From the NCBI GenBank assembly GCA_018819065.1, contig JAHJQL010000009.1, positions 1-54,631 of the forward strand: 54,631 nucleotides of DNA, given 5' to 3'. A program made the translations under genes and the position numbers. This document shows, piece after piece, positions 7,648 through 53,485 of this stretch. Numbering within the stretch: position 1 is the first letter of the stretch; every line of letters begins with the position of its first letter. The notes below the pieces were generated by a model. It saw nothing but the letters and a program-made list of their open reading frames with translations, was not told the origin of the DNA and did no database searches. This DNA comes from Nanobdellota archaeon. GTDB taxonomy: Archaea; Nanobdellota; Nanobdellia; Woesearchaeales; GCA-2686295.

Positions 7648-7648
7648 G

Positions 7649-8485
7649 ATGAATGAAATAACATTATTTGGGGAAAAACAAGTGCGTCGTGTTAGATTTC
7701 ATGATGAATGGTGGTTTGTTATAAAAGATGTTGTTTCTATACTTACAGAATCTGTTAATCCTTCTGATTATCTGAAAAAATTAAGGAAAAGAGATGAATC
7801 ATTATCTGATGTTTTTAAAGGAGGGGGACAGATTGTCCCTCCCCTTGGTATGGAATTTGATACTGCTGGTGGAAGACAGATGTTGCAGTGTTGGAACACC
7901 ACAGGCATATTAAGACTAATTCAATCAATTCCTTCTAAAAATGCGGAACCTTTCAAGAGATGGCTTGCAAAAGTAGGAAAAGAACGAATTGACGAAATAG
8001 AAAATCCTGAACTTGCACAGGAAAGAATGAAAGAGATTTACTCTGCAAAGGGCTATCCTAAAGATTGGATTGATAAAAGACTTCGAGGAATAGCAATAAG
8101 ACAAAATTTGACAGATGAATGGGAAAAAAGAGGTATTGAAACACGAAAAGATTTTGCAATTCTCACAGCAGAAATAAGTAAAGCAACATTTGGGATGACT
8201 CCATCAGAATATAAACAACATAAAAACTTGCCAAAACAGTCGAAAGCTAATCTAAGAGACCATATGAACGATTTAGAATTAATTTTTACAATGCTTGGAG
8301 AAAGAGTAACTACTGAGCTTTCTGAAGATGAAAAACCTGATTCTTTCAAAAAAAGTGAAGAAATTGCAAAAAAAGGTGGAAAAGCAGCAGGAGATGCTAG
8401 AAAATCTACTGAAAAGCAATTAAACAGAACAATCATTTCAAAGAAAAATTATTTAGAAAATAGTAAAAATAAGAAATTAAAATGA
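7649..8485 (+). CDS. Bro-N / DinD-like antirepressor-type protein
   Basis: The N-terminal part (ITLFGEKQVRRVRF, DEWWFVIKDVV) is a Bro-N domain, found in phage and baculovirus DNA-binding proteins. The remainder (GYPKDWIDKRLRGI, FGMTPSEYK, then KGGKAAGDARK near the end) matches the damage-inducible DinD-like extension. I chose ATG 7649, one nucleotide after the hsdMS stop, with GGGGAG upstream. A longer frame from 7592 would read back into hsdMS. The TGA stop lies inside the conserved tip (GGAGGTCA) of the adjacent IS200-like element, so the insertion may have replaced the natural last few residues. Confidence 0.85.
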   Translation: MNEITLFGEKQVRRVRFHDEWWFVIKDVVSILTESVNPSDYLKKLRKRDESLSDVFKGGGQIVPPLGMEFDTAGGRQMLQCWNTTGILRLIQSIPSKNAEPFKRWLAKVGKERIDEIENPELAQERMKEIYSAKGYPKDWIDKRLRGIAIRQNLTDEWEKRGIETRKDFAILTAEISKATFGMTPSEYKQHKNLPKQSKANLRDHMNDLELIFTMLGERVTTELSEDEKPDSFKKSEEIAKKGGKAAGDARKSTEKQLNRTIISKKNYLENSKNKKLK

Positions 8486-14381: not shown

Positions 14382-16127
14382 ATGAAATACTCCTCACTTG
14401 TAGAGGTATATGAAAAGATTGAGTCAACTTCTAAAAGGCTTGAAAAGACTTATCACATCTCTAATCTTTTAAAAAAAACTCCTGATGAAGACTTACAAAC
14501 AATAATATTGCTTATTCGGGGGCGATTGTATCCTGACTGGGATAAACGAAAGATAGGGGTTGCAAGCAAGCTGGTTTTAAAGGCAATAAACGCTTCTTCG
14601 GGTGCTGGAATAAATAAGATTGAGCAACTGTGGAGAGAGATAGGCGACCTTGGTCTTGTGGCTGACAGAGTCATTAAGACAAAGTCGCAGTCAACATTAT
14701 TCTCAGCAAAATTAACTGTTGCAAAGGTCTTTTCAAACCTCAGAAGGCTAAACGATATGGAAGGAGCAGGCAGTGTTGATAGAAAAGTTCAGCTAATATC
14801 AGAATTACTCTCTAGTGCTGATGAAAAAGAGGCGAAGTACATAGTGAGAACTGTTCTTGAAGACTTGCGAGTGGGAATTGGTGATGGAACATTACGAGAT
14901 GCTATTGTCTGGGCATATCTACCAATAGATGTGAAGTATAACCCTGAAAATGTGTCTATAGATGTTGATAGAGAGAAATACAACGAGATAGTCAACATTG
15001 TACAGTCTGCTTATGATAAAAGCAACGATTTCTCAACAGTTGCTATTGCTGCAAGAAAAGGCGTATCTGAGCTAAAAAAAGTGGGCTTGATACCAGGAAA
15101 GCCTGTAAAAGTCATGTTAGCCCAAAAAGTCTTAAGTGTGGATGGTGGCTTTGAAAAAGTTGGTGTTCCAGCGGAGCTTGAATACAAGTATGATGGCTTT
15201 AGAATGCAGATACACAAGTCAGAAGGCAAAATAACTATATTTACCAGGAGGCTTGAAGAGGTAACTAAGCAGTTCCCTGAAGTCGTCAAATGCATAAATG
15301 AACATGTTAAGGGTGAAAGCTTCATAATAGACTGTGAGGCAGTTGGGTATGATTCAAAAACAGGCAAGTACTTAGTGTTTCAACACGTATCCCAGCGTAT
15401 AAAGAGAAAACACAACATCCAAGAACTAGCTGCAAAGCTGCCAGTGGAACTAAACATATTTGATATATTATACTATAATGGTGAAGTCTTGCTAGATGTT
15501 CCTTTTGAAGAACGAAGAAAACTGCTTGAAAAAATAGTTTCTGAAAAACAGTCTGAAATTATCCTTGCCAAAAAGCTGGTAACCTCAGATAAGAAGGTTG
15601 CTTTAAAGTTTTATGAAGAATCAGTTGAGAAGGGTAATGAGGGAATAATGCTCAAAAGCCTCAAAAGCGTTTATAAACCAGGCTCAAGAGTTGGCTTTAT
15701 GGTGAAGCTAAAATCACAAATGGACACTCTTGACTTGGTTATCGTTGGCGCTGAGTGGGGTGAAGGCAAGAGAAGCGGCTGGCTTACATCCTTTAGCCTT
15801 GCATGCATTGATGAAGATGGAAACTATCTTGAAACCGGCAAAGTTGGAACTGGTGTTAAGGAAAAAGAAGAAGAAGGACTCTCTTTTGGAGAGCTAACCA
15901 AGATGCTTGAGCCGCACATAAAGCAGGAATCTGGAAGAGCAGTTGTAATAAAGCCAGAAATAGTTCTTGAAATAAAATTTGAGGAAATCCAAAAGAGCCC
16001 AACCTATTCAAGTGGTTACGCCTTGAGGTTTCCAAGGGTTATACAGGTAAGGGAAGATAGGGCTCCTGAAGAGTGCTCAACCATTGAAATGGTAAAGGAA
16101 GCCTTTAACAATCAAAAGAAAACATAG
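14382..16127 (+). CDS. lig: ATP-dependent DNA ligase
   Basis: Replicative archaeal DNA ligase that seals nicks between Okazaki fragments using ATP. The order is the N-terminal helical DNA-binding domain (residues 1-235), the adenylation domain with motif I K269-YDG followed by FTRRLEE (motif III region), the downstream motifs FIIDCEAVGYD and EGIMLKSL, and the OB-fold domain with MVKLKSQMDTLDLVIVGAEWGEGKR. At 581 residues it is a normal full-length archaeal ligase. The start at ATG 14382 follows a 45-codon frame by 6 nt. Nothing appears missing. Confidence 0.96.
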   Translation: MKYSSLVEVYEKIESTSKRLEKTYHISNLLKKTPDEDLQTIILLIRGRLYPDWDKRKIGVASKLVLKAINASSGAGINKIEQLWREIGDLGLVADRVIKTKSQSTLFSAKLTVAKVFSNLRRLNDMEGAGSVDRKVQLISELLSSADEKEAKYIVRTVLEDLRVGIGDGTLRDAIVWAYLPIDVKYNPENVSIDVDREKYNEIVNIVQSAYDKSNDFSTVAIAARKGVSELKKVGLIPGKPVKVMLAQKVLSVDGGFEKVGVPAELEYKYDGFRMQIHKSEGKITIFTRRLEEVTKQFPEVVKCINEHVKGESFIIDCEAVGYDSKTGKYLVFQHVSQRIKRKHNIQELAAKLPVELNIFDILYYNGEVLLDVPFEERRKLLEKIVSEKQSEIILAKKLVTSDKKVALKFYEESVEKGNEGIMLKSLKSVYKPGSRVGFMVKLKSQMDTLDLVIVGAEWGEGKRSGWLTSFSLACIDEDGNYLETGKVGTGVKEKEEEGLSFGELTKMLEPHIKQESGRAVVIKPEIVLEIKFEEIQKSPTYSSGYALRFPRVIQVREDRAPEECSTIEMVKEAFNNQKKT

Positions 16128-21028: not shown

Positions 21029-22492
21029 TTATTCTTTTTGCATTGATTTTATCTGTTTGAAAAGAGCTATTTCCGGTGCAAAATAATATATGTGGTGTCT
21101 ACATCTAAAATCTGCAACAAATCTATATTTTTCAACTAAAAATTTTACAAATCTGTTTTTTAAATGTTTTTGTATCCCCTCATTTAAAAAGTATGTGATA
21201 AGACAAATTCTTTGAAGTTTTTTCTTATCTTTTCCTGTTAACCACGGATTATGTGGCTCCATGTAATCAAAATAAATCCAATCTTCAAGTTTTTTTGGTA
21301 CTTCATATCCTGTTTTTTTTAATTCTTCAAAAAGAGTCGTTCCAGGATACAATGATAATATTTTCAAACCTAAAATGGTTGCTTGCGGATTTTCATCTTT
21401 TAATCTTATCATTAAAGATATAGTTTTTTTTACATCATCAAAAGTTTCTGTTGGAAAACCAACCATGAAACTGTACGATGGTTTTATTTTTGCTTTTTTT
21501 AATTTTCTATTACCTTGAAGTATTTGATTTATCGTGATTCCTTTTCCAACACTATCTAATATTCTTTGAGAGCCAGATTCAATACCCACATATATTCTTT
21601 TAAAACCTGTTTTTTTAATTTTTTTTAAAGTTTGAATTTCGCTTTTCGCTATGAAATCCATTCTACTGTTTGCAAAAAATTCTGTTTTTATACCTTCTTT
21701 TTCAACTTCGTCACAAAATTTTATTATTTCTTTTTCATCATAAAAAAATAAATCATCTAAAATACTTATTTTCATTTTGAATTCTAAACCCTTCTTTATA
21801 TTCTCTATTATTATATTAAGTGGTACTTTCCTAAAATTATTTTTTTTAAATGCGGTGTTTGTGCAGAAAGCGCAGTTGTATACGCATCCTCTTCCAGTCA
21901 CAACTGGAAATTCATCTTTTTCTTCAATCGCACCTGTATATTGATTTACATCAATGAGTTCGTAAGGCACTTTTAATGTTTTGTTTAGATCAAAAGGGTT
22001 TCTTCTTTCATTAATGATTATCTCATTATCTTTTTTATATCCTATGCCTTTGACTTTTGACAAATCTCCATCTACATCTAGTGTTTCTGTAAGTTCAACT
22101 AATGTTTCTTCTCCATCTCCTATCACTACAAAATCTATGTTTTTATTTTTCAGCGTTTCATATGGTAGGACTGATGGATGAATGCCTCCAAATATTATTG
22201 TTATTCTTTTATTTGTCTTCTTAACAAAACGAGCTATTTCTAAAGCGAACTTTATTTGAAGACCAGTCATAGTGGTTATTAATATTCTTGGTTGATGAGC
22301 ATCTTTAATAGCTTTCTTTAAGCTTTCTTTCCAGAATTTGTCAATCCTCTGATCTATAATCTTTACTTTATAACCTTTATTATAGGCTAGACTTACAGCG
22401 TACAGTAATCCGACAGGAACTCCTAAAAAAATTTTTTGTAAAAGAGTTTTTGGATACACTGCTATTAGTGTTGTTAATTCTTTTTTTGGCAT
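21029..22492 (-). CDS. B12-binding / radical SAM enzyme
   Basis: The N-terminal 140 residues are a cobalamin-binding-type Rossmann domain (LLYAVSLAYNKGYKVKIID, FGGIHPSVLP, IGDGEETLVEL) without the DxHxxG lower-ligand motif. The radical SAM domain carries C-VYN-C-AF-C near residues 202-209, then the conserved IYVGIESGSQRIL and SYSFMVGFPTET. Enzymes of this layout methylate unreactive carbons or rearrange lipids, sugars and cofactors. It is one of three such genes within 5.4 kb, alternating with glycosyltransferases. The ATG has no strong ribosome binding site. The substrate cannot be predicted from sequence alone. Confidence 0.88.
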   Translation of the reverse strand: MPKKELTTLIAVYPKTLLQKIFLGVPVGLLYAVSLAYNKGYKVKIIDQRIDKFWKESLKKAIKDAHQPRILITTMTGLQIKFALEIARFVKKTNKRITIIFGGIHPSVLPYETLKNKNIDFVVIGDGEETLVELTETLDVDGDLSKVKGIGYKKDNEIIINERRNPFDLNKTLKVPYELIDVNQYTGAIEEKDEFPVVTGRGCVYNCAFCTNTAFKKNNFRKVPLNIIIENIKKGLEFKMKISILDDLFFYDEKEIIKFCDEVEKEGIKTEFFANSRMDFIAKSEIQTLKKIKKTGFKRIYVGIESGSQRILDSVGKGITINQILQGNRKLKKAKIKPSYSFMVGFPTETFDDVKKTISLMIRLKDENPQATILGLKILSLYPGTTLFEELKKTGYEVPKKLEDWIYFDYMEPHNPWLTGKDKKKLQRICLITYFLNEGIQKHLKNRFVKFLVEKYRFVADFRCRHHIYYFAPEIALFKQIKSMQKE

Positions 22493-22660
22493 TTATTGCT
22501 AAAGTTTCTCTTTGTTTTTTAAATATTTTATGTAAACAATTTTTTGTTTTGCATAACTACCACAAATCATATTAAAAGAAGAAATTTATTGCTGTTGGTA
22601 TAAACTTTTACTGTTGAATCAAAATATTTTAAAGCAATTACACAATTATAATAATTCTTA

Positions 22661-24109
22661 ATGAAAAAAGAGGATAAATTCAATATCTTGTTCGTTTCGA
22701 CTACAAATATTCAGCCTTCTCTCTCTTTTGGCTACTTAATATCATATTTCAAGAAATATTCAGAATTGAGAGATGATTTTTGCTTTGAGATATTTGAATG
22801 TGAAAGATTGCTAGACATAATCATAACCTCTCCAAACGAGATAGTTAGAAAGGCAAAAAAATTTGATGTTGTCTGCTTTAGCACGATAACTGAGGATTAT
22901 AATTTTATACTTAAAACATCCAAAGAGATACATGACGCTGCTTCATGCAAAATATTCTTTGGAGGACATCACATATCTGCTCTTCCAGAAAAACTGCCTT
23001 CATATGTAGATGTAGGTCTTATTGGCGAAGCCGAAGAAACATTCAAAGAACTGCTAGAACTTTTAGCGAGAGGAGAGTTCAAAACTAAGAATCTTAAGAA
23101 TATTGACGGAATAGTCTATCATAACGCTAGGAAGACTATTATTACAAAGAAGAGGAAGATGATTTGGCCGCTGGACAATATTCCTCCTCCAGCAAGAGAA
23201 TATTTTAGTCGACATCATCGGGGAAAAAAGTATTGGTATAGCATGGATGAGCTGGCAGGAAAGAGAGTTGGTGTTCTAAGCGCTTCAAGGGGTTGTCCAT
23301 TCAGCTGCATCTTTTGCGACGCTAGTTTATTCTGGAACAACTCAATAAGATGGTTTAGCGAGGAGAGAATCGTTGATGAGATAAAAGAACTAATTGAGAA
23401 GTATGAAGTTGACCTGATAAAATTTAATGACAACCTAGGAATTTACAATAAAGAAAAGCTGAGAAAAGTTATAGAGTTGTTGAGAAAACAAGGGCTATTA
23501 AACAGATTTAAAGTGATAAAATACCAGTTGAGAGTTGACTTAATCGATGATGAACTGATAGAATTGCTAAAAGTTTTTGGAGTTAGAGAAATCGCTTTAG
23601 GAATTGAAACGCAGAACAAGACGCTGTTGAAAGAATTAAAAGGAGGAAAAGTGACTCCGAATATGAATAAAAAAGTGATTCTAAAACTTCTAAAAAACGG
23701 TTTTTTTGTCTGGCCAGAAATAATCGTTGGAATACCTGGAGAAGACGAGCATTCATTAAGAGAGACTCTCAAAATAACCAACATTAAAGGCGTTTTAGAT
23801 TATCACATAAGCCTATTAATACCCTACCCTGGAACTCCAATTTGGTCTTATGCAAAAGAAAAAGGATTGGTCAGCGATAATATGGACTGGGAAGAACTCA
23901 GATTGGAATTAAACGAGAAAACCATCAATATAAATGTTTTCCTTTCAACAATGGACAAACAGAAGTTTAAAGATATAATTAAGCCTTATCTTTCCAAGAA
24001 TAAGAGAGTATTAACGGTCTCAAACGTAAAGAGCCGCTTTGTGAACGGACTTAAGCTTCTAGTAACTAACCCGCGAACTTTTTATAAAGTCATGAAAGAA
24101 ATTTTATAA
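22661..24109 (+). CDS. B12-binding / radical SAM enzyme
   Basis: The N-terminal domain has FGYLISYFKKYSELRDDF, FGGHHISALPEKL and GLIGEAEETFKELL, the B12-binding domain pattern. The iron-sulfur motif CPFSCIFC lies near residues 211-218, followed by LIKFNDNLGIYN, LGIETQNKTLLKEL and PEIIVGIPGEDEHSL. The C-terminal 90 residues are helical. A TATA-like AAAATATTTTAAAG lies about 40 nt upstream of ATG 22661. A family-2 glycosyltransferase follows after 8 nt, so both are expressed together. A role in modifying a lipid or glycan is plausible. Confidence 0.88.
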   Translation: MKKEDKFNILFVSTTNIQPSLSFGYLISYFKKYSELRDDFCFEIFECERLLDIIITSPNEIVRKAKKFDVVCFSTITEDYNFILKTSKEIHDAASCKIFFGGHHISALPEKLPSYVDVGLIGEAEETFKELLELLARGEFKTKNLKNIDGIVYHNARKTIITKKRKMIWPLDNIPPPAREYFSRHHRGKKYWYSMDELAGKRVGVLSASRGCPFSCIFCDASLFWNNSIRWFSEERIVDEIKELIEKYEVDLIKFNDNLGIYNKEKLRKVIELLRKQGLLNRFKVIKYQLRVDLIDDELIELLKVFGVREIALGIETQNKTLLKELKGGKVTPNMNKKVILKLLKNGFFVWPEIIVGIPGEDEHSLRETLKITNIKGVLDYHISLLIPYPGTPIWSYAKEKGLVSDNMDWEELRLELNEKTININVFLSTMDKQKFKDIIKPYLSKNKRVLTVSNVKSRFVNGLKLLVTNPRTFYKVMKEIL

Positions 24110-24117
24110 GAATAAAT

Positions 24118-25014
24118 ATGAAAATGAGCAAAAAAATACTTGTTAGCGTTGTCATACCAACATATAATAGGCAGCACTATCTAAAAAACTGTTTAGAAAG
24201 ACTCGCAAACCAGACAATCTCGCAAAACTCATTCGAAGTAATTGTTGTTGATGATGGTTCAACGTGTGATATTTCTAGAGTCACAAATCAATTCTCAAAC
24301 AGGATAAAAAACCTTTCTTTAATAAGAATAGAGGATAATACGGGAAAGCCTGGGTTTGTTCGAAATACAGGAGTAAAAAGAGCAAAAGGTGACGTGGTGG
24401 CATTTATTGATGATGACTGCATCGCAGCAATTGATTGGATTGAAAAAATAGTGTTTTACCACAAAAGATTTAGAAATATAAATGTTATTCAAGGATTGTT
24501 AGACAATGCTAATAAGAAGAATGTTTATGGTGTTTTGTGGAAATTCATTCTTGACCTAAACATCAATCAAAAGACGAGGCATTCGAAGTTAAAATATGAT
24601 TACATCGATTTGCTTGGCACTGACAATCTATCTGTCAAAAAAAGAATATTTAATAAATTTGCTTTCAGCAACGATTTAAATGCTCGGGAAGACGAACTTT
24701 TCAGGTTGCAGTTAAAAAAATCATCTATTGATATATTATACATTCCAGGAATTGCAGTTAAACATGACTGCAGGAAAACCTTGTTCTCTTTTTTAAAACA
24801 GAATTTTATATACGGATCAGCAGATTTTTCAATGAAAAAATCATTCTCGAATGATAAGACTACGTCGCCTTCGCTGATGAACTTTGCCATCTTTAAATTG
24901 TTGTTTCAAAAACACGGATTTTCTAAGTGCATCAAGATGTTTGTTCTAATAATTCTTAAAAACGTGGCTTATTTAACGGGTTTTTTGCATCAGAAACTAT
25001 TTGTAAGAGCTTAA
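24118..25014 (+). CDS. Family 2 glycosyltransferase
   Basis: A GT-A fold enzyme: VVIPTYNRQHYLKNCLERL at the N-terminus, the nucleotide-binding VVDDGST near residue 42, GFVRNTGVKRAKGDVV, and the metal-binding FIDDDC near 98. The acceptor-side acidic motif NAREDELFRLQ is also present. The C-terminus has a hydrophobic stretch (FVLIILKNVAYLTGF) that may attach it to the membrane. It lies 8 nt behind the upstream radical SAM gene, and its last 18 nt overlap the end of the convergent radical SAM gene. It would transfer a sugar from a nucleotide donor to an unknown acceptor. Confidence 0.9.
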   Translation: MKMSKKILVSVVIPTYNRQHYLKNCLERLANQTISQNSFEVIVVDDGSTCDISRVTNQFSNRIKNLSLIRIEDNTGKPGFVRNTGVKRAKGDVVAFIDDDCIAAIDWIEKIVFYHKRFRNINVIQGLLDNANKKNVYGVLWKFILDLNINQKTRHSKLKYDYIDLLGTDNLSVKKRIFNKFAFSNDLNAREDELFRLQLKKSSIDILYIPGIAVKHDCRKTLFSFLKQNFIYGSADFSMKKSFSNDKTTSPSLMNFAIFKLLFQKHGFSKCIKMFVLIILKNVAYLTGFLHQKLFVRA

Positions 25015-26436
25015 AAAGAGGTTTCTTACCATGCTCATAAACTTTTTAAAAATGTACTTGTAAAAAGTAAAGCTTATATAACCATTTTTTAATGCATAGT
25101 GGGCCTGAAGAATCATGCCTTTGTTCTTCATTGCAAGCATTTCAGACCTCTTTATATTAGGAAGCGAAATTGTTAAATCATCGCCTAAAGCGCTAGGTGT
25201 AGTTGTTTCTTTTATTAAGTTATATTTCTGGCAAGTACTAAACATTGCAGAGCCAGGTATTGGAACAGCGAAATTCCAAGATATATAATCCAACAGGTTG
25301 TTTTTCAGAAGTTTTTTAGCGAATCTGTAAGTGTTGTTGCACATATCCAAGTCTTCATAACATAACCCATTCTCATCTTCCCACACGTTAAATATTATGA
25401 AGAACCCACCTATTTTAAGACCGTTTCTCTTGAGTATCTCACATGCTTTGACGACTTGTTTTAAATCTATATTCTTTCTTATGCCATCCAATGTTTTCTG
25501 GTTTGCACTCTCTATTCCCAGATGAACAAACCAAAAACCTGCCTTTCTGAGGTTTTTTCCAAGTTCTTCTGTGACGTTGCTGGCGTGTAGTTGACATTTC
25601 ATGCTCAAGCCATTCAGATTGAGTTTTTGTATCTCTTCACATAAAGAATTCGCGTATTTCAATGAAACGTTTAACTCATCAGAGTAGTCATATATCTCTT
25701 TTATGCCGTGTTTTGTTACTAAAGTTCTTATTTCAGCAGCAACATTCTTCGGACTCCTGTTTCTAAACCATGGTTTTTTTGACTTCCAAACAGGACTAGA
25801 GCAAAAGTTGCAATCAAACGGGCAACCCCTAGATGAGATTATACACACATCAAGTGTTTGCTTCTTATAAAAATAGCCTTTATATCTTTTGAGATTAACC
25901 AAGTCCCAAGATGGAAACGGCAATTTGTTAATATTAGCCTGCAGTAACCTTTCATGATTCTTAAGTATTTTTTTTTCTTTTTTAAATGCAATACCTTTAA
26001 CATTTTTCAAATCTTTAATCTGCCCTTTGAAGTAATGCACTAATTCGCTAAAAGTCTCTTCACCTTCACCAATTATGCATATATCGGCTCCTGCGAGTAA
26101 CATATCGTCCGGATTTGAGGTAGGATAAACTCCTCCGCATACAATAATCATATCATGATATCTTTTTTTTAGCTCTTTTATCAACTGTATACTTATGTTT
26201 GAAGTGATATATGCTACAGATAAAGCTAAAATGTTTGGTTTTTCCTTTTCAATAACCTTAAGATATTTCTTGAGATAATAATCCCCTTCAAAGTAACTTA
26301 CAAAAACGTCACTGTGATATTTTCTAACATAAGACATTAAGTATAACAAACCTAAATTTGGATAAAACCTGTGATCCTTGGTGCTGTTTTTTGTCAGCGG
26401 AGGATTTGCAAAAAGAATTTTCATCTTTGTATTCAT
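24997..26436 (-). CDS. B12-binding / radical SAM enzyme
   Basis: This is the third enzyme of this type in the cluster. The B12-binding-like domain (LGLLYLMSYVRKYHSDVFVS, VCGGVYPTSNPDDML, ICIIGEGEETFSEL) is followed by the iron-sulfur motif CPFDCNFC near residue 205, then EIYDYSDELNVS, FVHLGIESANQKTL and IGGFFIIFNVWEDE. The C-terminal part ends in a helical tail. It is divergent from the glycosyltransferase at 26491, with about 54 nt between their starts, so they share a promoter region. The order of acidic and glycine motifs is intact. The substrate is unknown. Confidence 0.88.
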   Translation of the reverse strand: MNTKMKILFANPPLTKNSTKDHRFYPNLGLLYLMSYVRKYHSDVFVSYFEGDYYLKKYLKVIEKEKPNILALSVAYITSNISIQLIKELKKRYHDMIIVCGGVYPTSNPDDMLLAGADICIIGEGEETFSELVHYFKGQIKDLKNVKGIAFKKEKKILKNHERLLQANINKLPFPSWDLVNLKRYKGYFYKKQTLDVCIISSRGCPFDCNFCSSPVWKSKKPWFRNRSPKNVAAEIRTLVTKHGIKEIYDYSDELNVSLKYANSLCEEIQKLNLNGLSMKCQLHASNVTEELGKNLRKAGFWFVHLGIESANQKTLDGIRKNIDLKQVVKACEILKRNGLKIGGFFIIFNVWEDENGLCYEDLDMCNNTYRFAKKLLKNNLLDYISWNFAVPIPGSAMFSTCQKYNLIKETTTPSALGDDLTISLPNIKRSEMLAMKNKGMILQAHYALKNGYISFTFYKYIFKKFMSMVRNLFLSSYK

Positions 26437-26490
26437 ATACTGTTTAAATAAGCATTTAATTTATAAATATTCTTTGTATTAACAATAGTC

Positions 26491-27450
26491 ATGAAGCAAA
26501 TTAGAGTGTCAGTTGTTGTATTGACAAGAAACAGGCCTCAATACTTGAGAACTTGTTTGGAAAGCATAAAAAAACAAGATTATCCTGAACAATCTTTTGA
26601 AGTCATTGTTGTTGATAATAATTCTTCAGAAGAAAACGCTGTTTTGAACAAAGAGATAGTCTCAAGAAATGGCTTTGCAAGATATATTTGTGAAAGCAAG
26701 ATTGGTGTTTCATTTGCGAGAAATACAGGGGTTAAGCTGGCAAGATATGAATACGTAGCATTCATAGCGGATGATTATGAACTATCTGTTGATTATTTGG
26801 CTAGTGTGAATTCTTTGTTCCAAAAAAATAAGCACATCAATGTTTTGTGTTTTAACATAGTATCTGATGATAAAAAATCAATACAAAAAGTAAACCAGTA
26901 TTATTATGAGACAAAGAGATTATTAGCAATCAAAGAAGAACAATCAATCACCAAGAAAATATTTTCTGCAAAACAAATCTCATTTGATGATAAACCTCAT
27001 AAAGTACCTCATTATCCCGTTTCAGGAGCTGCAGTCATTAAAAAAACTGTGTTTGATAAAGCAGGTTTATTTGACGAAACATTCTTTTTGTGTGAAGACG
27101 TTGATTTTGGAATTAGACTTAACAAGAAAGGTATTTGTGCTTATTACTCCTCTGCTGTTAAGATAAAACAAAAAAACGAGGCAAATCTGTTCTTGAGCCT
27201 TAAGCGACAGTTCGTCTATGGAAAATTCTATGTTGTTCTAAAGAATCGCTGGTCGGACTATTCAAGAATTGTTCCAAGAAGCACTTTTGGATACATCTTT
27301 TTTCTGCTCTTGTCACCATTTATATCTTTGTGGAGGTGTAGTCTTAGCCGGAATCTAATGAAATTTCTTTTTTACTTTCTTTTCATTCTGTTGTTTGACA
27401 TCACTTTTTTTTTAGGAGCGATTTTTCAATCATGTCGCGGGAAACTATAG
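26491..27450 (+). CDS. Membrane-anchored family 2 glycosyltransferase
   Basis: The GT-A motifs are VVVLTRNRPQYLRTCLESI, VVDNNSSEE near residue 41, GVSFARNTGVKLAR, FIADDYELS as the Asp-x-Asp region, and FLCEDVDFGIRLNKKG as the acceptor-site acidic motif. The last 70 residues contain two hydrophobic segments (FGYIFFLLLSPFISLW and FLFYFLFILLFDITFFLGAI), so the enzyme probably acts at the inner face of the membrane on a lipid-linked acceptor. It is followed after 36 nt by a large polytopic protein and is likely co-transcribed with it. Confidence 0.9.
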   Translation: MKQIRVSVVVLTRNRPQYLRTCLESIKKQDYPEQSFEVIVVDNNSSEENAVLNKEIVSRNGFARYICESKIGVSFARNTGVKLARYEYVAFIADDYELSVDYLASVNSLFQKNKHINVLCFNIVSDDKKSIQKVNQYYYETKRLLAIKEEQSITKKIFSAKQISFDDKPHKVPHYPVSGAAVIKKTVFDKAGLFDETFFLCEDVDFGIRLNKKGICAYYSSAVKIKQKNEANLFLSLKRQFVYGKFYVVLKNRWSDYSRIVPRSTFGYIFFLLLSPFISLWRCSLSRNLMKFLFYFLFILLFDITFFLGAIFQSCRGKL

Positions 27451-36036: not shown

Positions 36037-36999
36037 ATGGTCGAGATTGATAATATTGATAAAAAAATACTCTTTGAAATAGACAAGAATTCTCGAAGAA
36101 GCATAAAAGAGATAGCCAAAAAACTTGGCTTGAAGAGAGATACTGCAGCATATAGATTAAAGCAACTGGAAAAAAATAATGTTATAACAGGATACTACAC
36201 AATAATAGACTACTCAAAATTAGGATATATGCTTGTAAGATTATACTTAAAATTTCAAAATACAACACCATCTCTTGAAGAAGAAATAATACAACATCTC
36301 ATAGCAGAAAAATCATGTCTGACAATGTTTAAAGCAGAAGGAACATGGGATTTAGCGTCTGGATTTTTAGTAACTTCATTTTTAGAATTTAAAGATATAC
36401 AAAAAAGATTACACAAAAAATATAGAAAAAACATAAATATCTACGAAGTGTCAATATTCTACGAATTTATACATTACCTAAAAAATTATCTTGTAGAAGA
36501 AAAACTTCGTGATTACAAAAAATTCTCAACAGGAAAATCAACTGGTGTGAAGTTTGACCAAACAGATATAAAACTTCTGCGAATGATTGCTCATAACTCC
36601 AGAATATCACTTCTTGAACTTGCATCAGGACTAAAACTAAGTTCAATGGCTGCAAGATATAGACTAAAACAACTTGAAAAAGAAAGCGTAATACTTGGAT
36701 ATCGTGCACTGATAAATCTCTCTACAATAAGATATGAATATTATAAAGTTGATATTGAACTTGAAGATATTAGCTGTTTAAAAGAACTTGAAGAATACGC
36801 AAAACAACATCCACATATAACATATGAAGACAAAACAATAGGTGGATTAGACTTTGAGTTTGACGTTGAGATTAAAAATGATGATGAATTCTACAAGCTA
36901 ATAGCAACACTAAAAGAACGATTCTCTGGAATGATAAGAACATATAGATACTATAAAGCCAAAAAAATATACAAATATATTTATCTACCTGATGAGTAA
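36037..36999 (+). CDS. Double Lrp/AsnC-type transcriptional regulator
   Basis: Two Lrp-like units are joined in one 320-residue chain. The first helix-turn-helix begins IDKKILFEIDKNSRRSIKEI and has RDTAAYRLKQLEKNNVITGY. The second begins QTDIKLLRMIAHNSRISLLE and has SMAARYRLKQLEKESVILGY. The two recognition helices are strikingly alike (AxYRLKQLEK). Each is followed by a ligand-sensing-like half. The protein could bind DNA as a pseudo-dimer. A TATA-like TTTATAAGTATATTG ends about 15 nt before ATG 36037, so the transcript is probably leaderless. Targets are unknown. Confidence 0.88.
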   Translation: MVEIDNIDKKILFEIDKNSRRSIKEIAKKLGLKRDTAAYRLKQLEKNNVITGYYTIIDYSKLGYMLVRLYLKFQNTTPSLEEEIIQHLIAEKSCLTMFKAEGTWDLASGFLVTSFLEFKDIQKRLHKKYRKNINIYEVSIFYEFIHYLKNYLVEEKLRDYKKFSTGKSTGVKFDQTDIKLLRMIAHNSRISLLELASGLKLSSMAARYRLKQLEKESVILGYRALINLSTIRYEYYKVDIELEDISCLKELEEYAKQHPHITYEDKTIGGLDFEFDVEIKNDDEFYKLIATLKERFSGMIRTYRYYKAKKIYKYIYLPDE

Positions 37000-37038: not shown

Positions 37039-37803
37039 ATGTTCATCCACAACATAAACCCTGTTCTTGTAAAACTAGGATTTTTAGAGATAAGATACTA
37101 CAGTTTAGTCTACATAATAGGATTTCTAGTCACATACTATATATTATTGAAACTAGCGAAAAAAAAGAAGATAAAAAACCTAACAAAAGAAGGAGTTGAG
37201 GACTTCATGATATATTTTATACTCGGATCAATAATTGGTGGTCGAGTACTGGATTTCTTGTTTTACAACCCTTCAGTTTTTTGGACTAATCCTTTGGAGA
37301 TACTTTACATCTGGCATGGAGGAATGTCATTTCACGGAGGGCTAATCGGAGCAATAACTGGTGCATTCTTATTCATAAAAAAGCATAAAGTAGAGTTTTA
37401 CGACTTAGCAGACATCATAGTGCTGCCATTATCATTCTTCTTATTCTTAGGTCGGATTGCAAACTTTATCAATGGAGAACTATGGGGCACAGTCACAAAC
37501 GTCTCATGGTGCGTCAAATTCCAAGGAGTAGAAGACTGCAGGCACCCATCACAGCTATACGAAGCAGCAAAGAACCTCGCAATATTTGGATTCTTAATGT
37601 TTTTTAAGAAGAGAAAACTAAAGAAAGGAGTAATCTTCTGGAATTTTGTACTATTATATGGAGCACTTCGTTTTATAACTAATATTTGGAGAGAAGACTC
37701 ACGATTCCTAGGGCTAAGTATGGGACAATATCTAAGCCTTGCAATGGTTATACTAGCAGGGATATACCTTTACAGGATAAACTCTGCTAAAACCAAAAAA
37801 TAG
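37039..37803 (+). CDS. lgt: Prolipoprotein diacylglyceryl transferase (Lgt-type)
   Basis: A 254-residue polytopic enzyme matching bacterial Lgt, which attaches diacylglycerol from phosphatidylglycerol to the lipobox cysteine of secreted proteins. Diagnostic blocks are intact: RYYSLVYIIGF near residue 19, HGGMSFHGGLIG at 93-104, GRIANFINGELWG with R139 and N142, and HPSQLYEA. About seven membrane segments are visible. Lgt is a bacterial hallmark, and archaeal membranes use ether lipids, so both origin and substrate are unusual. It follows the double Lrp gene by 39 nt. No signal peptidase II gene is in the window. Confidence 0.93.
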   Translation: MFIHNINPVLVKLGFLEIRYYSLVYIIGFLVTYYILLKLAKKKKIKNLTKEGVEDFMIYFILGSIIGGRVLDFLFYNPSVFWTNPLEILYIWHGGMSFHGGLIGAITGAFLFIKKHKVEFYDLADIIVLPLSFFLFLGRIANFINGELWGTVTNVSWCVKFQGVEDCRHPSQLYEAAKNLAIFGFLMFFKKRKLKKGVIFWNFVLLYGALRFITNIWREDSRFLGLSMGQYLSLAMVILAGIYLYRINSAKTKK

Positions 37804-37849: not shown

Positions 37850-38167
37850 ATGGAAGAGTTAAAATGCCGAGTGCATGGTCTTTCTTTTGCATCTACATGT
37901 AGTTGGTGCAGCGACCCTATATGCGAACAATGCCTTTTAGCCAACAATGGCAGGAAATACTGCGTTAGATGCTATATGAGGCTGACAAAGAACAGCGTAG
38001 CAGACTTCTTAGACAAAAAAAAGGAGCGATATGGCGAAAAGCCAACTGAGAAGATATTAAATATCGATCCATCACTTGACGAAGAAGAAGTTAAGAAAAG
38101 GCGAAAAATGCTAGACATAAGAGAAAAAGCGAAGTCAGTGCTGGGCAGAATCGAAAAACACCAATGA
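37850..38167 (+). CDS. B-box-type zinc-finger protein, 105 aa
   Basis: The first 45 residues hold a dense cysteine-histidine cluster: CRVHGLSFASTCSWC, ICEQC and YCVRC, like the B-box zinc finger of many small archaeal proteins. The C-terminal 55 residues are charged and helical. The ATG at 37850 has a strong GGGGGG-type ribosome binding site with spacing of about 7. It is followed by tpiA after about 20 nt. A nucleic-acid or protein-binding role is likely. The partner is unknown. Confidence 0.8.
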   Translation: MEELKCRVHGLSFASTCSWCSDPICEQCLLANNGRKYCVRCYMRLTKNSVADFLDKKKERYGEKPTEKILNIDPSLDEEEVKKRRKMLDIREKAKSVLGRIEKHQ

Positions 38168-38188
38168 CTTTAAAAGAGTGATAAAGTG

Positions 38189-38854
38189 ATGAAGACACCA
38201 ATAATAATAGTGAATTTCAAAGCCTACAAAGAAGGAACGGGCAGAAATGCTGTAAAGCTTGCAAAGATATGCGAAAAAGTCGCTAAAAAGACTAAGAAAA
38301 ACATTGCAATCGCAGTCGAGGAAGTGGATATTCGCAATATAAGCTCTAAAGTTAAGATACCAGTTCTAAGCGAACACCTAGACTCAATAAGAGAAGGTGC
38401 TCACACAGGCAACAACTTAGCAGAAGCAATCAAGGAGAACGGGGCGTGGGGAACATTGCTAAACCACTCAGAAAACCGCTTAAGAATAGACCAACTGGAA
38501 GAAAGCATCAAACGAGCAAGAGAAGTAGGCTTAAAAACCGTTGTCTGCGCGAATAACTCTGAAATCGCAGAAGCAGTAGCCGCGTTTGAACCAGACATGA
38601 TAGCAATTGAGCCACCAGAACTAATAGGTGGAGACATATCTGTAAGCACTGCAAAGCCACAAGTAATAACTGATACGATAAAAAAAGTCAAGAGAATAGC
38701 AAACATACCAGTGCTGTGCGGTGCAGGGATAAAAAGTGGTGCAGACGTAAAAAAAGCTATTAAACTAGGAGCAAAAGGAATACTCGTAGCCTCAGGCATA
38801 GTCAAAGCCAAAGACCCAGAAAAAGCATTAACAGAACTAGCAGACGCACTCTAG
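38189..38854 (+). CDS. tpiA: Triosephosphate isomerase, archaeal type
   Basis: Interconverts dihydroxyacetone phosphate and glyceraldehyde 3-phosphate. The catalytic residues appear in VNFKAYKEG (Lys), LLNHSENR (His) and IAIEPPELIGG (Glu), and the phosphate-binding loop is CGAGIKSGAD. The compact length of 221-222 residues is typical of the archaeal subfamily, which lacks several helices found in bacterial enzymes. ATG 38189 is preferred. A GTG lies one codon upstream. The gene ends 4 nt into the convergent pilin-like gene. Confidence 0.96.
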   Translation: MKTPIIIVNFKAYKEGTGRNAVKLAKICEKVAKKTKKNIAIAVEEVDIRNISSKVKIPVLSEHLDSIREGAHTGNNLAEAIKENGAWGTLLNHSENRLRIDQLEESIKRAREVGLKTVVCANNSEIAEAVAAFEPDMIAIEPPELIGGDISVSTAKPQVITDTIKKVKRIANIPVLCGAGIKSGADVKKAIKLGAKGILVASGIVKAKDPEKALTELADAL

Positions 38855-39664: not shown

Positions 39665-40261
39665 TTACGAAACTACCTCTACATAAAATTGTTTTGAATT
39701 AACCGAATTATTGTATTTATTTGTATCTGTTTTTCCTCTAAGTTCTACAGTGCAGAGATATTTTTCGCCAACAGGTACTGCTAAGTTCGGAATAAACTTC
39801 TTATCATCTTTTACAATTATTTGAAATCCTTGTGATTTCCCAATTCCAACTTCAAGATCAGTAGTTGTTAGATTAAAATATTTACCGCAGTCACTTGTAG
39901 CTGTAGCAAGTATAGCTCCACTAGCATCTATTTCTCCATATAGGAATGGTCGGAACAACAATTTATTAGTTACTGCTGATGTAACGGTGTTTTGAGTTTT
40001 CACATTGAAAAAACCCATTTTCATAATCCCTGTACCGCCACTTTTAACTTGTACTGTTTTATCTAATGTTATAGGGTTTCCAGCTGTCGCAGGGTTTTCT
40101 AGCTCTGCATTATCGATTGCTGTTGTGAATTGTCCTTGTCCTTTGGTTATTAGCCCTCTGATGAATCCAAGCCCCAGTCCTAGTACTGCCATTGCCATGA
40201 CTAGAATTACTATTGCTTCAATGCTTAAATTTAAGGAACCTTTCTTATTTCTTAACCTCAT
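39665..40261 (-). CDS. Pilin/archaellin-like protein, copy 1
   Basis: The protein begins MRLRNKKGSLNLSIEAIVIL, a class III signal (NKKG, then the hydrophobic assembly helix with Glu near position 15). The 140-residue outer domain has two cysteines and a beta-rich pattern. Its first 60 residues are almost identical to the next gene, and this identity holds at DNA level from 40083 to 40279, including the ribosome binding site AGAGGTG. The rest has diverged strongly. It is probably a structural subunit of a pilus-like filament. Confidence 0.85.
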   Translation of the reverse strand: MRLRNKKGSLNLSIEAIVILVMAMAVLGLGLGFIRGLITKGQGQFTTAIDNAELENPATAGNPITLDKTVQVKSGGTGIMKMGFFNVKTQNTVTSAVTNKLLFRPFLYGEIDASGAILATATSDCGKYFNLTTTDLEVGIGKSQGFQIIVKDDKKFIPNLAVPVGEKYLCTVELRGKTDTNKYNNSVNSKQFYVEVVS

Positions 40262-40284
40262 GATTAATACACCTCTTTATTGTT

Positions 40285-40794
40285 CTAGGAGACGATGTTG
40301 ACTTGGAATTGTCTGGATGCAAAGATATTACTACCATCATTGAATTTTAAAGTGCATATGGTTGTAGAACCAACACTAGATCCAGAAGCATTATCTTTAA
40401 CTAATACTTCCCAACCCTTACCTTCTCCAATTCCTATTTTTTGAGGACCACTTTGAAATGTTATTGAGTTTGTACCATCTGGTTTACATTCTCCTGACAA
40501 TATGGGTTGGGCATTAAGAAGTTCATTAGCTCCTCCGTTGTAGAACCCTATTTTCATCCTGCCAGTGCCTTTAGTCTTTACATTAACAGTCCTATCCACA
40601 GTCATTGGGTTATCGGCTGTCGCAGGGTTTTCTAGCTCTGCATTATCGATTGCTGTTGTGAATTGTCCTTGTCCTTTGGTTATGAGTCCTCTGATGAATC
40701 CAAGCCCTAGTCCCAGTATTGCCATTGCCATGACTAGAATTACTATTGCTTCAATGCTTAAATTTAAGGAACCTTTCTTATTTCTTAGTCTCAT
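40285..40794 (-). CDS. Pilin/archaellin-like protein, copy 2
   Basis: This is a paralogue of the preceding pilin-like gene. The N-terminal signal and assembly helix are the same except for single substitutions (MAVLGL versus MAILGL). The outer domain is shorter and quite different in sequence, with two cysteines. The duplicated DNA (40616-40812) includes the upstream ribosome binding site. The two genes lie head to tail with 23 nt between them. They would form filaments with different surfaces. Confidence 0.85.
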   Translation of the reverse strand: MRLRNKKGSLNLSIEAIVILVMAMAILGLGLGFIRGLITKGQGQFTTAIDNAELENPATADNPMTVDRTVNVKTKGTGRMKIGFYNGGANELLNAQPILSGECKPDGTNSITFQSGPQKIGIGEGKGWEVLVKDNASGSSVGSTTICTLKFNDGSNIFASRQFQVNIVS

Positions 40795-44372: not shown

Positions 44373-45428
44373 ATGGGAACTTTTGACAGGATATTATCTC
44401 ACGACGAGTCGTTGATAAAGAATGAAAACGCGCTGGACTTCGACTTCATACCAAAGATAATTCCTCACAGAGAAAAAGAGCAGGAAGCAATAGCTCTCGT
44501 CATAAAGCCCTTGTTCATGAATAGGACTGGGAGAAACATATTCATCTACGGCTCTTCAGGGGTTGGAAAGACCCTGGCTGCAAAGCACGTGTTAAGAGAG
44601 CTAGAAGAAAAGACTGATGAGATAAGAGTGGTTTACGTTAATTGTTGGCAGCAAAACACTAGCTACAAAGTGTCGGTGTCAATATGTGAGCAGATAGGAT
44701 ACCGTTTTGTCCAAAACAAGAACACGACAGAGTTATTCCAGGTAATCGCGAGGATAATTAACGATTCATCAGCAGTATTCGTCTTTGACGAGGTTGACAA
44801 GGTTGAAGACACAGATTTTTTGTATCACCTCCTTGAGCAGATATACAAAAAAGCCATCCTGCTGATAACAAACTACGAGTCATGGATTTCTGACCTTGAT
44901 GAACGGGTAAAATCCAGGCTGATGCCTGAACAGATGGAATTTAAGCAATACAACGCTTCAGAGACGGCATCAATACTAAAAGACCGGCTAAGATACGCAT
45001 TCCCAGAAGATGTGTGGAGCGACGAAGCATTTGACTTGGTTGCAAAGAAAGCTGGAGAATTAAAAGATATCAGGCTAGGACTCTTTTTGCTAAAGGAATC
45101 AGCGTACGCAGCTGAGGATAAAGCCAAGAGGAAGATAGAGTTAGAAGACGTTAAAAAAGCCCTTTTAAAAGTAGATTCTTTCACCATAAAAAATAGTGCA
45201 GACCTAGAAGAAGAAACCAAGTCAATATACGACCTTGTAAAAGAGCATTCAGGCAAAAAGATAGGCGACCTCTTTGAACTATATCAGCAAAGAGGCGGAA
45301 AGTCCAGCTACAAGACATTTCAGCGAAAGATAGAGAAACTCTCAGAAAACAAGTTTGTAAAAACCACCAAGACAACTGGCAAAGGCGGAAACACGACGAT
45401 TGTAGAGAAAAAGCTAACTGAGTTCTAA
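44373..45428 (+). CDS. orc1: Orc1/Cdc6-type replication initiator
   Basis: Binds origin DNA and loads the MCM helicase. The AAA+ domain has Walker A GSSGVGKT (residues 60-67), Walker B VFVFDEVDK near 135, sensor 1 (LLITNYE) and the arginine-rich DERVKSRLMPEQ. The C-terminal winged helix that contacts origin DNA runs from about residue 280 (SIYDLVKEHSGKKIGDLF, SYKTFQRKIEKLSENKFV). At 351 residues it is slightly shorter than the usual 380-410. In archaea this gene often lies beside an origin. Candidate sites are found on both sides. Confidence 0.94.
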   Translation: MGTFDRILSHDESLIKNENALDFDFIPKIIPHREKEQEAIALVIKPLFMNRTGRNIFIYGSSGVGKTLAAKHVLRELEEKTDEIRVVYVNCWQQNTSYKVSVSICEQIGYRFVQNKNTTELFQVIARIINDSSAVFVFDEVDKVEDTDFLYHLLEQIYKKAILLITNYESWISDLDERVKSRLMPEQMEFKQYNASETASILKDRLRYAFPEDVWSDEAFDLVAKKAGELKDIRLGLFLLKESAYAAEDKAKRKIELEDVKKALLKVDSFTIKNSADLEEETKSIYDLVKEHSGKKIGDLFELYQQRGGKSSYKTFQRKIEKLSENKFVKTTKTTGKGGNTTIVEKKLTEF

Positions 45429-50780: not shown

Positions 50781-51788
50781 ATGGTTAAATCAAGAAGAGA
50801 CAGGCGCCTCGAAAGGTTACAAAAAAAATCTATGTTATCATTTTCAGAAAGCAAGAAGCCCGAATCATCCACACAATCAGATATATCGATGAAATCTAAG
50901 AAAAAAGGCAACTTCTTCTCGAGAATTTATGAGGATCATTATAAAAAACTAGTATTAATACCTATGCTGCTCTTGTTATTATCTTTCGTCGTTATAGGAT
51001 TTAACATAGCAGAAACAGGCGACTTCATGAACAAAGCAGTCTCGCTAAAAGGTGGAATTACACTAACAATACCAACAATCACCCAAGAGATAGATTTCAA
51101 AGCGCTAGAATCAAATTTAAAATCAGATTTATCAAAGGGCGACTTGTCTGTCAGAGAGCTTTCAGAGTTTGGAGTGCAAAAAGGAGTAATTATAGAAGCA
51201 TCTGGTGTGGAGGAAGATGAGCTATTGGCTTCAACAAAAAAAGCGGTTGGTGATTTTGGAGACTCATACTCGCTTGAAAACCTTGGTCCATCACTAGGGG
51301 CTAGTTTTTTTAAGCAGATGATGTTTGCAGTTATCTTAGCATTCATATTCATGGGCATAGTAGTTTTTCTATACTTCAAAACATTCGTGCCTAGCGTTGC
51401 AGTAATGCTTGCAGCGTTCTCAAACATAGTAATAGCACTTGCAGTCACAGACTTGCTTGGTATGAAGATAAGCGCTGCGGGAATCGCTGCTTTTCTAATG
51501 CTGATAGGTTATAGCGTTGATACAGATATACTATTAACAACGAGGGTTCTAAAAAGAAAAGAAGGAACACTCATGGAAAGAATTTATGGCGCTATGAAAA
51601 CTGGCCTTACGATGAATATCACAACTATAGTGGCGGTAACTATTGCTTTAATAGTCACAAATTCAGATGTCATAGCTCAGATAATGACTATAATACTAAT
51701 AGGTTTGATGGCAGACATAGTAAATACGTGGATACAAAACGTTGCAATACTAAGATACTACCTTGAAAAGAAAGGAATAAAAGAATGA
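50781..51788 (+). CDS. secF: Protein translocase subunit SecF
   Basis: SecF works with SecD to aid Sec-dependent export using the proton gradient. The first membrane segment (LVLIPMLLLLLSFVVIGF) is followed by a periplasmic-like domain and five further segments. The conserved GYSVDTDILLTTRVLK (D4-type motif) and the SLGASFFKQMMFAV start of the second block are present. The ATG at 50781 has a GATA-rich upstream. The stop overlaps the SecD start by 4 nt (ATGA), so the pair is translationally coupled. Confidence 0.94.
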   Translation: MVKSRRDRRLERLQKKSMLSFSESKKPESSTQSDISMKSKKKGNFFSRIYEDHYKKLVLIPMLLLLLSFVVIGFNIAETGDFMNKAVSLKGGITLTIPTITQEIDFKALESNLKSDLSKGDLSVRELSEFGVQKGVIIEASGVEEDELLASTKKAVGDFGDSYSLENLGPSLGASFFKQMMFAVILAFIFMGIVVFLYFKTFVPSVAVMLAAFSNIVIALAVTDLLGMKISAAGIAAFLMLIGYSVDTDILLTTRVLKRKEGTLMERIYGAMKTGLTMNITTIVAVTIALIVTNSDVIAQIMTIILIGLMADIVNTWIQNVAILRYYLEKKGIKE

Positions 51789-53485
51789 GCAAAATAAAGA
51801 ATATATTCACACATTGGAGAGTAATAATAGTGCTAGTCTTTCTTATTTTATCAGTTGCAAGTATAAGTCCAAATCCTTGGAATGAAGGAGCAACAATAAG
51901 ATTTGTGGCAAAAAACAGCTCTGCAGCAATTGCAGGCATAGAAAATCCAACTTTTGGCGGAACACCTATGAGTAAGGAAACAATATTGTCAATAAACAAT
52001 AAGCCAATAACAAATGCAAAAGATTATTTTGACTTCGTCACAGGTCTGCCGCCAAATAAAACTATAACTATAAGGTCTGATAAAGGATTTTACAAGTTAG
52101 TAACAAAGCCAGAATATAATATAACAATCCTGGACGAGACAGAACTAATAAGGGTGACTGAACAAGTCTTTAATGAAACACTAAACGAAACAGTTAACAT
52201 AACCAGAGTCGAAGAAGTTCAAAAGGTTAAAAAAGATATAATAGGAACAGAAGACTTAGGGCTCGTAGTCTACGATGCACCAACCAATAACATAAGAAAA
52301 GGACTTGACTTGTCAGGTGGAACAAGAGTCATACTAAAACCAGAAGAAGAAGTCAACCAAGAAGAATTAGACTTAGTCGTTTCAAACATAAAAGAGCGAT
52401 TAAACGTTTATGGATTAAGCGATATAATTGTTAGAACTACGAGTGATTTGGAAGGCAGCAAGTTCATACTAGTCGAAATTGCTGGTGCAAACAAAGAAGA
52501 AGTAAAAGAATTACTTGCAAAACAAGGAAAATTCGAGGCGAAAATAGGCTCAACCACCGTCTTTAAAGGCGGAGACGACATAAAATATGTTTGCAGAAGA
52601 GCAGAGTGCGCAGGAATAGACCCTAACTCTGCCTGTGGTCCTTCAGGAGACGGTTGGAACTGTAGATTCAGATTCAGCATATCACTAAGCACGGCTGCAG
52701 CGCAAAAACAAGCGGACACAACCAAGTATTTATCTGTAGTAACAGAAGGCTCTGACACCTACTTAAATGAGTCACTTGACTTATTCTTAGACGACCAAAA
52801 AGTTGATACTTTAAGAATCGGCTCAGAGCTCAAAGGAAACGCGGTGACTGAGATATCAATATCTGGAGGTGGCTTTGGCAGCAACCAACAATCAGCGATG
52901 GCTGACGCACTAAACAATATGAAAAAGCTGCAGACAGTTCTTGTGACCGGAAGCCTACCAGTCAAGCTAACAATAGTAAAAACAGACAGCATTTCTCCAA
53001 TGCTAGGATCAGAATTCATAAAAAACGCTGTGCTAATAGGACTGCTTGCAATAGTTGCAGTTGTTGTGGTAGTTTTTATTGTCTACAAAAAACTAGTTAT
53101 AGCACTGCCAATGGTAGTTACAATGATATCAGAAGCAATAATACTACTCGGATTTGCATCAATAATAGGCTGGAACCTTGACTTGGCAGCAATTGCAGGA
53201 ATAATGGTTGCCATAGGAACAGGCGTAGATGATCAAATAGTCATAGCAGACGAAGTCTTAAGAGGAGAAAAAGGAGTGTTTATATCTTGGAAAGACAGAA
53301 TAAAACATGCATTTTTCATAATCATGGCAGCATTCTTTGTAACAGTCGTTGCAATGATACCACTATGGTTTGCAGGCGTAGGAATACTCAAAGGCTTTGC
53401 ACTAACAACAATTCTTGGAGTATCAATAGGAGTATTTATCACAAGGCCAGCGTATGCCTCAGTCGTGGAGATACTAAGCAAATAA
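51785..53485 (+). CDS. secD: Protein translocase subunit SecD with PDZ-like insert
   Basis: The C-terminal half contains the SecD membrane block, including DLAAIAGIMVAIGTGVDDQI and GVSIGVFITRPAYASVVEI. The motif LDLSGGTRVIL near residue 175 is the classical SecD D1 sequence. Between the first membrane helix and this motif, about residues 35-115, lies a PDZ-like domain (SAAIAGIENPTF, ILSINNKPITNAKDYFDFV). That insert is not part of bacterial SecD. It may present substrates or bind a chaperone. Length is 566 residues. Sequence after the stop is AT-rich. Confidence 0.93.
   Translation: MSKIKNIFTHWRVIIVLVFLILSVASISPNPWNEGATIRFVAKNSSAAIAGIENPTFGGTPMSKETILSINNKPITNAKDYFDFVTGLPPNKTITIRSDKGFYKLVTKPEYNITILDETELIRVTEQVFNETLNETVNITRVEEVQKVKKDIIGTEDLGLVVYDAPTNNIRKGLDLSGGTRVILKPEEEVNQEELDLVVSNIKERLNVYGLSDIIVRTTSDLEGSKFILVEIAGANKEEVKELLAKQGKFEAKIGSTTVFKGGDDIKYVCRRAECAGIDPNSACGPSGDGWNCRFRFSISLSTAAAQKQADTTKYLSVVTEGSDTYLNESLDLFLDDQKVDTLRIGSELKGNAVTEISISGGGFGSNQQSAMADALNNMKKLQTVLVTGSLPVKLTIVKTDSISPMLGSEFIKNAVLIGLLAIVAVVVVVFIVYKKLVIALPMVVTMISEAIILLGFASIIGWNLDLAAIAGIMVAIGTGVDDQIVIADEVLRGEKGVFISWKDRIKHAFFIIMAAFFVTVVAMIPLWFAGVGILKGFALTTILGVSIGVFITRPAYASVVEILSK

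Follow-up and report, generated by a model that had tools for sequence, protein, structure and literature searches.

The closest described counterpart of the gene reported here is Lgt of Escherichia coli, the prolipoprotein diacylglyceryl transferase. For this enzyme the accessible part of a recent study gives Y26, H103, R143, N146, G154 and R239 as absolutely required (PMC13251419), and in the available portion of the structure paper attack of the lipobox cysteine on the C3-O bond of the phospholipid is proposed as the mechanism, and specificity for the phosphatidylglycerol head group is attributed to the enzyme (PMC4728403). Lgt is stated to be absent from archaea in the accessible text of the former study (May 2026; RefSeq of February 2021), and the available parts of an earlier paper (PMC2945643, 2010) and of a review (PMC12186497, 2025) say that no archaeal homologues of the bacterial lipoprotein enzymes have been identified; the structure paper, as far as its available text goes, mentions archaea alongside a supplementary figure. 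Our literature search, with Hong et al. 2025 (Nat Commun 16:8411) and preprints outside its scope, showed no report of an archaeal Lgt among the entries listed, and the words “lipoprotein” and “diacylglyceryl” are absent from the full text of PMC8204110, PMC7414124, PMC8421398, and PMC8407392. Here, we studied an lgt gene in a window of 54,631 nt, which is the whole of one contig (C49) of a draft genome from a DPANN archaeon (1.52 Mb, 93 contigs, 95.5% complete, 0.89% contamination).

A complete lgt gene on an archaeal contig

The open reading frame at 37039-37803 (+ strand) starts with ATG, contains no internal stops, and encodes 254 amino acids. It matches the LGT family PF01790 with an E-value of 6.6e-69 and 232.3 bits (cut-off 24.9) over profile positions 1-238 of 240, the NCBIfam equivalog TIGR00544 with 183.2 bits (cut-off 118.9), and the E. 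coli Lgt chain 5azb with an E-value of 8e-38; it is the only lgt copy in its genome. An AlphaFold2 model built from a 25-row alignment has a pLDDT of 90.5 and shows the seven-helix Lgt fold, as its best match in the PDB is 5azb (Z 25.8, rmsd 2.1, 247 aligned residues), with the runner-up at Z 6.9. Each of the six residues that E. coli Lgt requires is conserved, as Y21, H99, R139, N142, G150, and R211. By computation from residue numbers, the codons for H99-G100-G101, which correspond to the E. coli H103GG motif, lie at 37333-37341 (+), and those of the signature motif G138-RIANFINGELW-G150 (E. coli G142 to G154) at 37450-37488 (+), where R139 is equivalent to E. coli R143 and N142 to N146; residue alignment places the codon for R211 (E. 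coli R239) at 37669-37671 (+). In the 36 archaeal rows compared (35 at R239), the six positions do not vary, save one Q for H103, and equivalents of E. coli R73, G98, G99, G104, D129, G142, E151, Y235, and R246 are also present. The open reading frame is thus confirmed as a complete Lgt. A sequence-only reading of the window had called it a complete bacterial-type Lgt in an archaeon, and the Pfam and TIGR00544 matches, the fold, and the residues bear this out; the loss of catalytic residues on close alignment, which that reading named as grounds for giving up the claim, is not seen.

Two substitutions deserve mention. E. coli G145 is replaced by A141, an alanine that likewise occurs in 27 of the 81 bacterial rows. 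E. coli E243 is replaced by N215; E stands here in every one of the 81 bacterial rows and in 32 of the 35 archaeal ones. In E. coli, the E243A mutant is recorded in the accessible part of the mutational study as growing like the wild type (PMC13251419); the structure paper, in its available portion, places E243 in a conserved hydrogen-bond network whose residues it describes as intolerant of mutation (PMC4728403). The mutational study also records that Lgts from several monoderm bacteria do not rescue an E. coli K-12 lgt depletion strain (PMC13251419).

The gene lies between an Lrp/AsnC-type regulator (36037-36999) and a small open reading frame without a family match (37850-38167), with an archaeal-type triosephosphate isomerase (38186-38854) 0.4 kb downstream, and G+C content shows no jump at lgt. 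The same contig bears an ATP-dependent DNA ligase (14382-16127), an Orc1/Cdc6-type AAA protein (44373-45428), and, by family matches, archaeal-type SecF (50781-51788) and SecD (51785-53485), which together occupy 50781-53485 (+). Among the best 80 of 594 matches to the encoded protein, the closest named relative is from a Nanoarchaeota MAG (JAHJDK010000258.1, 69% identity), and the other archaeal matches are labelled Woesearchaeota or simply archaeon, names that suggest Woesearchaeales as the order.

Other features of the window were noted in passing. Two adjoining open reading frames at 39665-40794 (- strand) have near-identical N-termini (MRLRNKKGSLNLSIEAIVILVMAMA) that by eye resemble type IV pilin-type signals, and they have no Pfam match. 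Type I restriction-modification genes, including an HsdR-like helicase, lie at 1742-8485 (+), with DNA methylase and specificity domains fused in one protein at 5239-7647, and at 21029-27450 three B12-binding radical SAM proteins are interleaved with two family 2 glycosyltransferases.

Lgt and LspA across the phylum

The genome also encodes a signal peptidase II, for which the sequence-only reading had suggested a search. This LspA lies on another contig (C24:3304-3681), scores 110 bits against PF01252 (cut-off 25) and 86.9 against TIGR00077 (cut-off 73.95), and carries the motifs NTGAVW, GNLIDR, and FNFAD. Just downstream on the opposite strand is aIF-1A, and a Dph1/Dph2-domain protein follows 4 kb further on. 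For comparison, this gene and the 30 best-scoring loci made a set of 31, from which 29 proteins were extracted, L049 and L062 having been dropped by a motif filter. Both motif aspartates, which we take to be the catalytic ones, are kept in 28 of the 29; the exception, L052, has GNLIGR.

In a sample of 279 genomes from the same DPANN phylum (166 from the same order and 113 from outside it), Lgt was detected in 207 (181 of the 220 of good quality) and LspA in 199. Both enzymes occur together in 189 genomes, Lgt alone in 18, LspA alone in 10, and neither in 62; this co-occurrence has a Fisher p of 9e-35 when the relatedness of the genomes is ignored. Within the order, 155 genomes have Lgt, 151 have LspA, 142 have both, and 2 have neither, and outside it 47 have both and 60 have neither. 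Among 14 control genomes, PF01790 matched in nine bacteria and PF01252 in 10, and the archaeal controls M. jannaschii, H. volcanii, S. acidocaldarius, and M. acetivorans gave no match to either profile. PF01790 also found no match in B. subtilis, which we assume carries lgt; the search therefore has false negatives, and some of the 28 one-gene genomes may owe their status to missed genes. Thus the earlier view that Lgt is not a standard archaeal enzyme needs to be divided: the complete gene in an archaeon stands, and its status as an exception does not, since in this phylum it is the rule. One genome, G078, stands out with six Lgt matches, compared with one or two in almost every other, representing either an expansion or fragments.

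These data also bear on whether the gene could come from bacterial contamination or a chimeric contig, the other circumstance that the sequence-only reading had said would undo its claim. The contamination estimate of 0.89% and an assembly in 93 contigs leave some room for this. However, archaeal replication, ligase, Sec, and triosephosphate isomerase genes share the contig with lgt, the LspA contig bears aIF-1A, and the phylum-wide distribution of Lgt extends to the single-contig genomes G004, G044, G074, and G077. We regard contamination as extremely improbable and reject it.

A tree was built from 37 archaeal and 48 bacterial Lgts (85 in total); the bacterial rows comprise 41 of 74 loci (drawn from the best 80 of 594 matches) and seven plasmid-borne sequences, and include no Patescibacteria. 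Four of the plasmid-borne rows form long branches. The archaeal sequences group together, requiring two label changes compared with about 28 in shuffles. A single archaeal clade was not rejected (p-AU 0.299), but monophyly was dropped as an established result, given the two label changes and the position of the archaeal row L002 beside Proteobacteria-type rows. The pattern is compatible with a single old acquisition followed by vertical descent and losses. Because the tree is unrooted and unevenly sampled, the direction of transfer cannot be read from it.

The fifth transmembrane segment (TM5) of the archaeal proteins at first seemed to differ from the bacterial form. Among the 37 archaeal rows, 34 have a strict Y-E-x-x-K/Y-N, two have the short form with S for N, and one lacks the search motif; among 81 bacterial rows, 74 have a long Y-E-x-x-x-E-G, one has another form, and six lack the motif. 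The archaeal form is one residue shorter than the Proteobacteria-type. The short form also appears in Bacillota (L279, L280, L284), Actinomycetota (L283), and Cyanobacteriota (L285). It therefore marks lineages and does not speak for an archaeal lipid, and the idea that a pocket change peculiar to archaea points to a novel lipid was rejected.

Lipobox proteins and a widespread lipoprotein family

Candidate substrates were sought with a signal-peptide-plus-lipobox rule, controlled by placing each of the other 19 residues in the position of the cysteine. In the genome studied, 609 open reading frames from 633 kb were scanned (contigs sampled by number, together with the lgt contig and C69), and nine matched where 1.7 were expected (p 7e-5), so lipobox proteins, another of the suggested searches, occur above chance. 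Two further genomes with both enzymes gave four matches against 1.05 expected (G004) and two against 0.49 (G044), and two without Lgt or LspA gave none against 0.27 (G099) and one against 0.64 (G032). Pooled, the three genomes with both enzymes have 15 matches in 1040 open reading frames versus 3.2 expected, and the two with neither have one in 378 versus 0.9. Of the nine matches from the genome studied, one is a serpin and one a DUF192 protein, and the remaining seven have no Pfam family. The serpin (L199:16085-17323, on contig C37; PF00079, E-value 3.6e-126) is a side observation: an archaeal member of this family whose signal peptide carries a lipobox.

Three of the nine adjoin on contig C39. 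One of them, 315 residues long, represents a family that 141 of 145 genomes of the order contain. The family cysteine is present in every printed N-terminus of the best homologue per locus at 30 loci, and the scripted rule finds it in 55 of 58 related open reading frames. Across 20 aligned rows, cysteine 18 never changes, although the signal peptide varies over most of its length. Outside the order, 46 of the 47 genomes that have both enzymes carry the family, 9 of these 46 with only a weak match (E-values 4e-9 to 1e-4), versus 6 of the 60 that have neither. Members of the family (L201:15766-19648 on C39; L249-L278) show F-I/L-G-G-T-x-G-L after the lipobox together with a number of conserved cysteines, and a second copy that has diverged frequently lies beside them. 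The family has no assigned function, and the three copies in the genome studied lack a Pfam match.

Lipoboxes are, however, not confined to genomes with Lgt and LspA. Six genomes outside the order in which neither enzyme was detected (G179, G193, G207, G242, G252, and G266; loci L286-L297) carry the family, and the loss of the lipobox that would be expected there was not found: the cysteine is present in 12 of 13 printed rows, or in 11 of 12 distinct proteins after allowing for one that appears twice, compared with 48 of 50 rows at the 30 best loci of genomes with both enzymes. These six genomes weaken a strict link between Lgt/LspA and the lipobox. Either Lgt and LspA were missed there or another enzyme carries out lipidation, and the six are candidates in which to look for such an enzyme.

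Lipid donor, proposed pathway, and known systems

We searched 60 relatives, including the genome studied, with profiles PF13685, PF01884, PF01864, PF01066, and PF02660. Over cut-off, 17 genomes have PF13685, one has GGGP synthase (PF01884), 30 have CDP-archaeol synthase (PF01864), 38 have CDP-alcohol phosphotransferases (PF01066), and three have PlsY (PF02660). The first of these counts is an upper bound for G1PDH, since PF13685 also matched 13 of the 14 controls, nine of them bacterial, and is thus not specific. In the genome studied, the profile search gave no match for G1PDH (PF13685), GGGP synthase (PF01884), or PlsY (PF02660). Its PF01864 and PF01066 members adjoin on contig C69: the CDP-archaeol synthase scores 144.2 bits in NF003114, slightly below the cut-off of 148, and its neighbor is a PssA/archaetidylserine-synthase-like protein (TIGR00473, 144.6 bits, cut-off 107). 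This is the sole CDP-alcohol transferase found in the genome, and by its look it is serine-type and not glycerol-phosphate. The presence of CDP-archaeol and archaetidylserine-type synthases, with G1PDH, GGGP synthase, and PlsY undetected, suggests a scavenged and probably archaeal lipid, and the genes fit the addition of head groups to a skeleton obtained elsewhere. In the available portion of one study GGGP and DGGGP synthases are missing from one Woesearchaeota subgroup (PMC8421398), and the accessible part of another suggests lipids from a bacterial host (PMC11868695). At the level of gene content, what was found and what was not are in keeping with the earlier suggestion that the enzyme may draw on archaeol-type lipids or on lipids of a partner.

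Taken as a whole, the results point to a probably working Lgt-LspA pathway, in which Lgt would act as it does in bacteria, on lipobox substrates and with a membrane phospholipid as donor. Precursors with a lipobox would be exported, travelling via the archaeal-type SecD/SecF; through attack by the lipobox cysteine on the C3-O bond of a phospholipid positioned close to R139 and R211, Lgt would move the diradylglyceryl group from that phospholipid to the cysteine. LspA, whose gene lies on another contig, would then cut before the lipidated cysteine, and the protein would stay on the outer face. Likely substrates are the order-wide lipoprotein family, the serpin, and the DUF192 protein. We infer the activity, the order of the reactions, and the outer-face anchoring, and more tentatively that the cell obtains the skeleton of the donor phospholipid from another organism, the donor being likelier an archaeal isoprenoid ether lipid to which the cell can attach a head group. 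The working-pathway reading is favored by the family match, fold, and residues of Lgt, by LspA and the co-occurrence of the two, by the lipobox excess, and by the conserved cysteine. Counting against it are the 28 of 279 genomes with one gene of the pair, N215 in place of E243, and the seven of nine lipobox matches without a Pfam family, as well as the phosphatidylglycerol specificity of E. coli Lgt set beside the serine-type CDP-alcohol transferase found here.

The donor may be archaeal or bacterial; we favor an archaeal one slightly. One could suppose that the pathway works with its chemistry unchanged on a bacterial ester phospholipid, such as phosphatidylglycerol, supplied by a bacterial partner. 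The essential residues are indeed those of bacterial Lgt, and G1PDH and GGGP synthase went undetected in the genome, but the head-group enzymes that it does encode are archaeal-type or compatible with archaeal lipids (CDP-archaeol synthase beside the PssA/archaetidylserine-synthase-like enzyme), and PlsY is undetected here and present in just 3 of the 60 relatives, so we consider a bacterial donor possible, if rather doubtful. We hold with somewhat greater, still tentative, expectation that the lineage runs Lgt-LspA on isoprenoid ether lipids of archaeal stereochemistry, with skeletons coming from another archaeon and the head group added by the symbiont. Another reading would give Lgt some other role or acceptor and leave lipoproteins to another enzyme, for example, AliA/AliB, which the available text of PMC12186497 credits with lipidation in Haloferax. 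The six genomes that keep lipobox proteins without a detected Lgt or LspA are in line with this idea, yet all the essential residues are kept, Lgt and LspA co-occur strongly, and the lipoprotein family tracks the two enzymes outside the order, which makes it improbable.

The Lgt-LspA pair, found together in 142 of the 166 sampled genomes, is the rule in one archaeal order, and it extends the set of bacterial-type genes in these archaea by an envelope system. If the ether-lipid proposal is true, a conventional Lgt would be working across the lipid divide, moving an archaeol-type diglyceryl group onto surface proteins. The archaeal enzyme offers a direct test of ether-lipid acceptance by Lgt. 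The widespread lipoprotein family may face the host, and Lgt or LspA inhibitors are possible probes for DPANN co-cultures.

Compared with bacterial Lgt (E. coli 5azb/5azc), the archaeal protein has in common the family match, the fold, the signature motif, and all six essential residues. It differs in its host and in its length (254 residues versus 300 for the crystallized E. coli chain), in having N215 for E243, and in a TM5 that is shorter than the Proteobacteria-type and common to Bacillota, Actinomycetota, and Cyanobacteriota rows; in addition, the usual donor of the bacterial enzyme is apparently not made by the archaeal cell. The archaeal LspA likewise has the N-x-G, GNxIDR, and FNxAD motifs of its bacterial counterpart (PF01252/TIGR00077) and passes both family cut-offs, but its gene sits in an archaeal host beside aIF-1A, apart from lgt (C24 versus C49). 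AliA/AliB of Haloferax volcanii, in the available text of PMC12186497, resemble Lgt in serving the lipidation of the lipobox cysteine in archaea; they have no homology to the bacterial enzymes according to the accessible part of PMC13251419, whereas the gene described here is a true Lgt. It is a plain member of its family; the unusual points are the domain of life, the almost universal occurrence within the order, and an apparent lack of synthesis of the usual donor.
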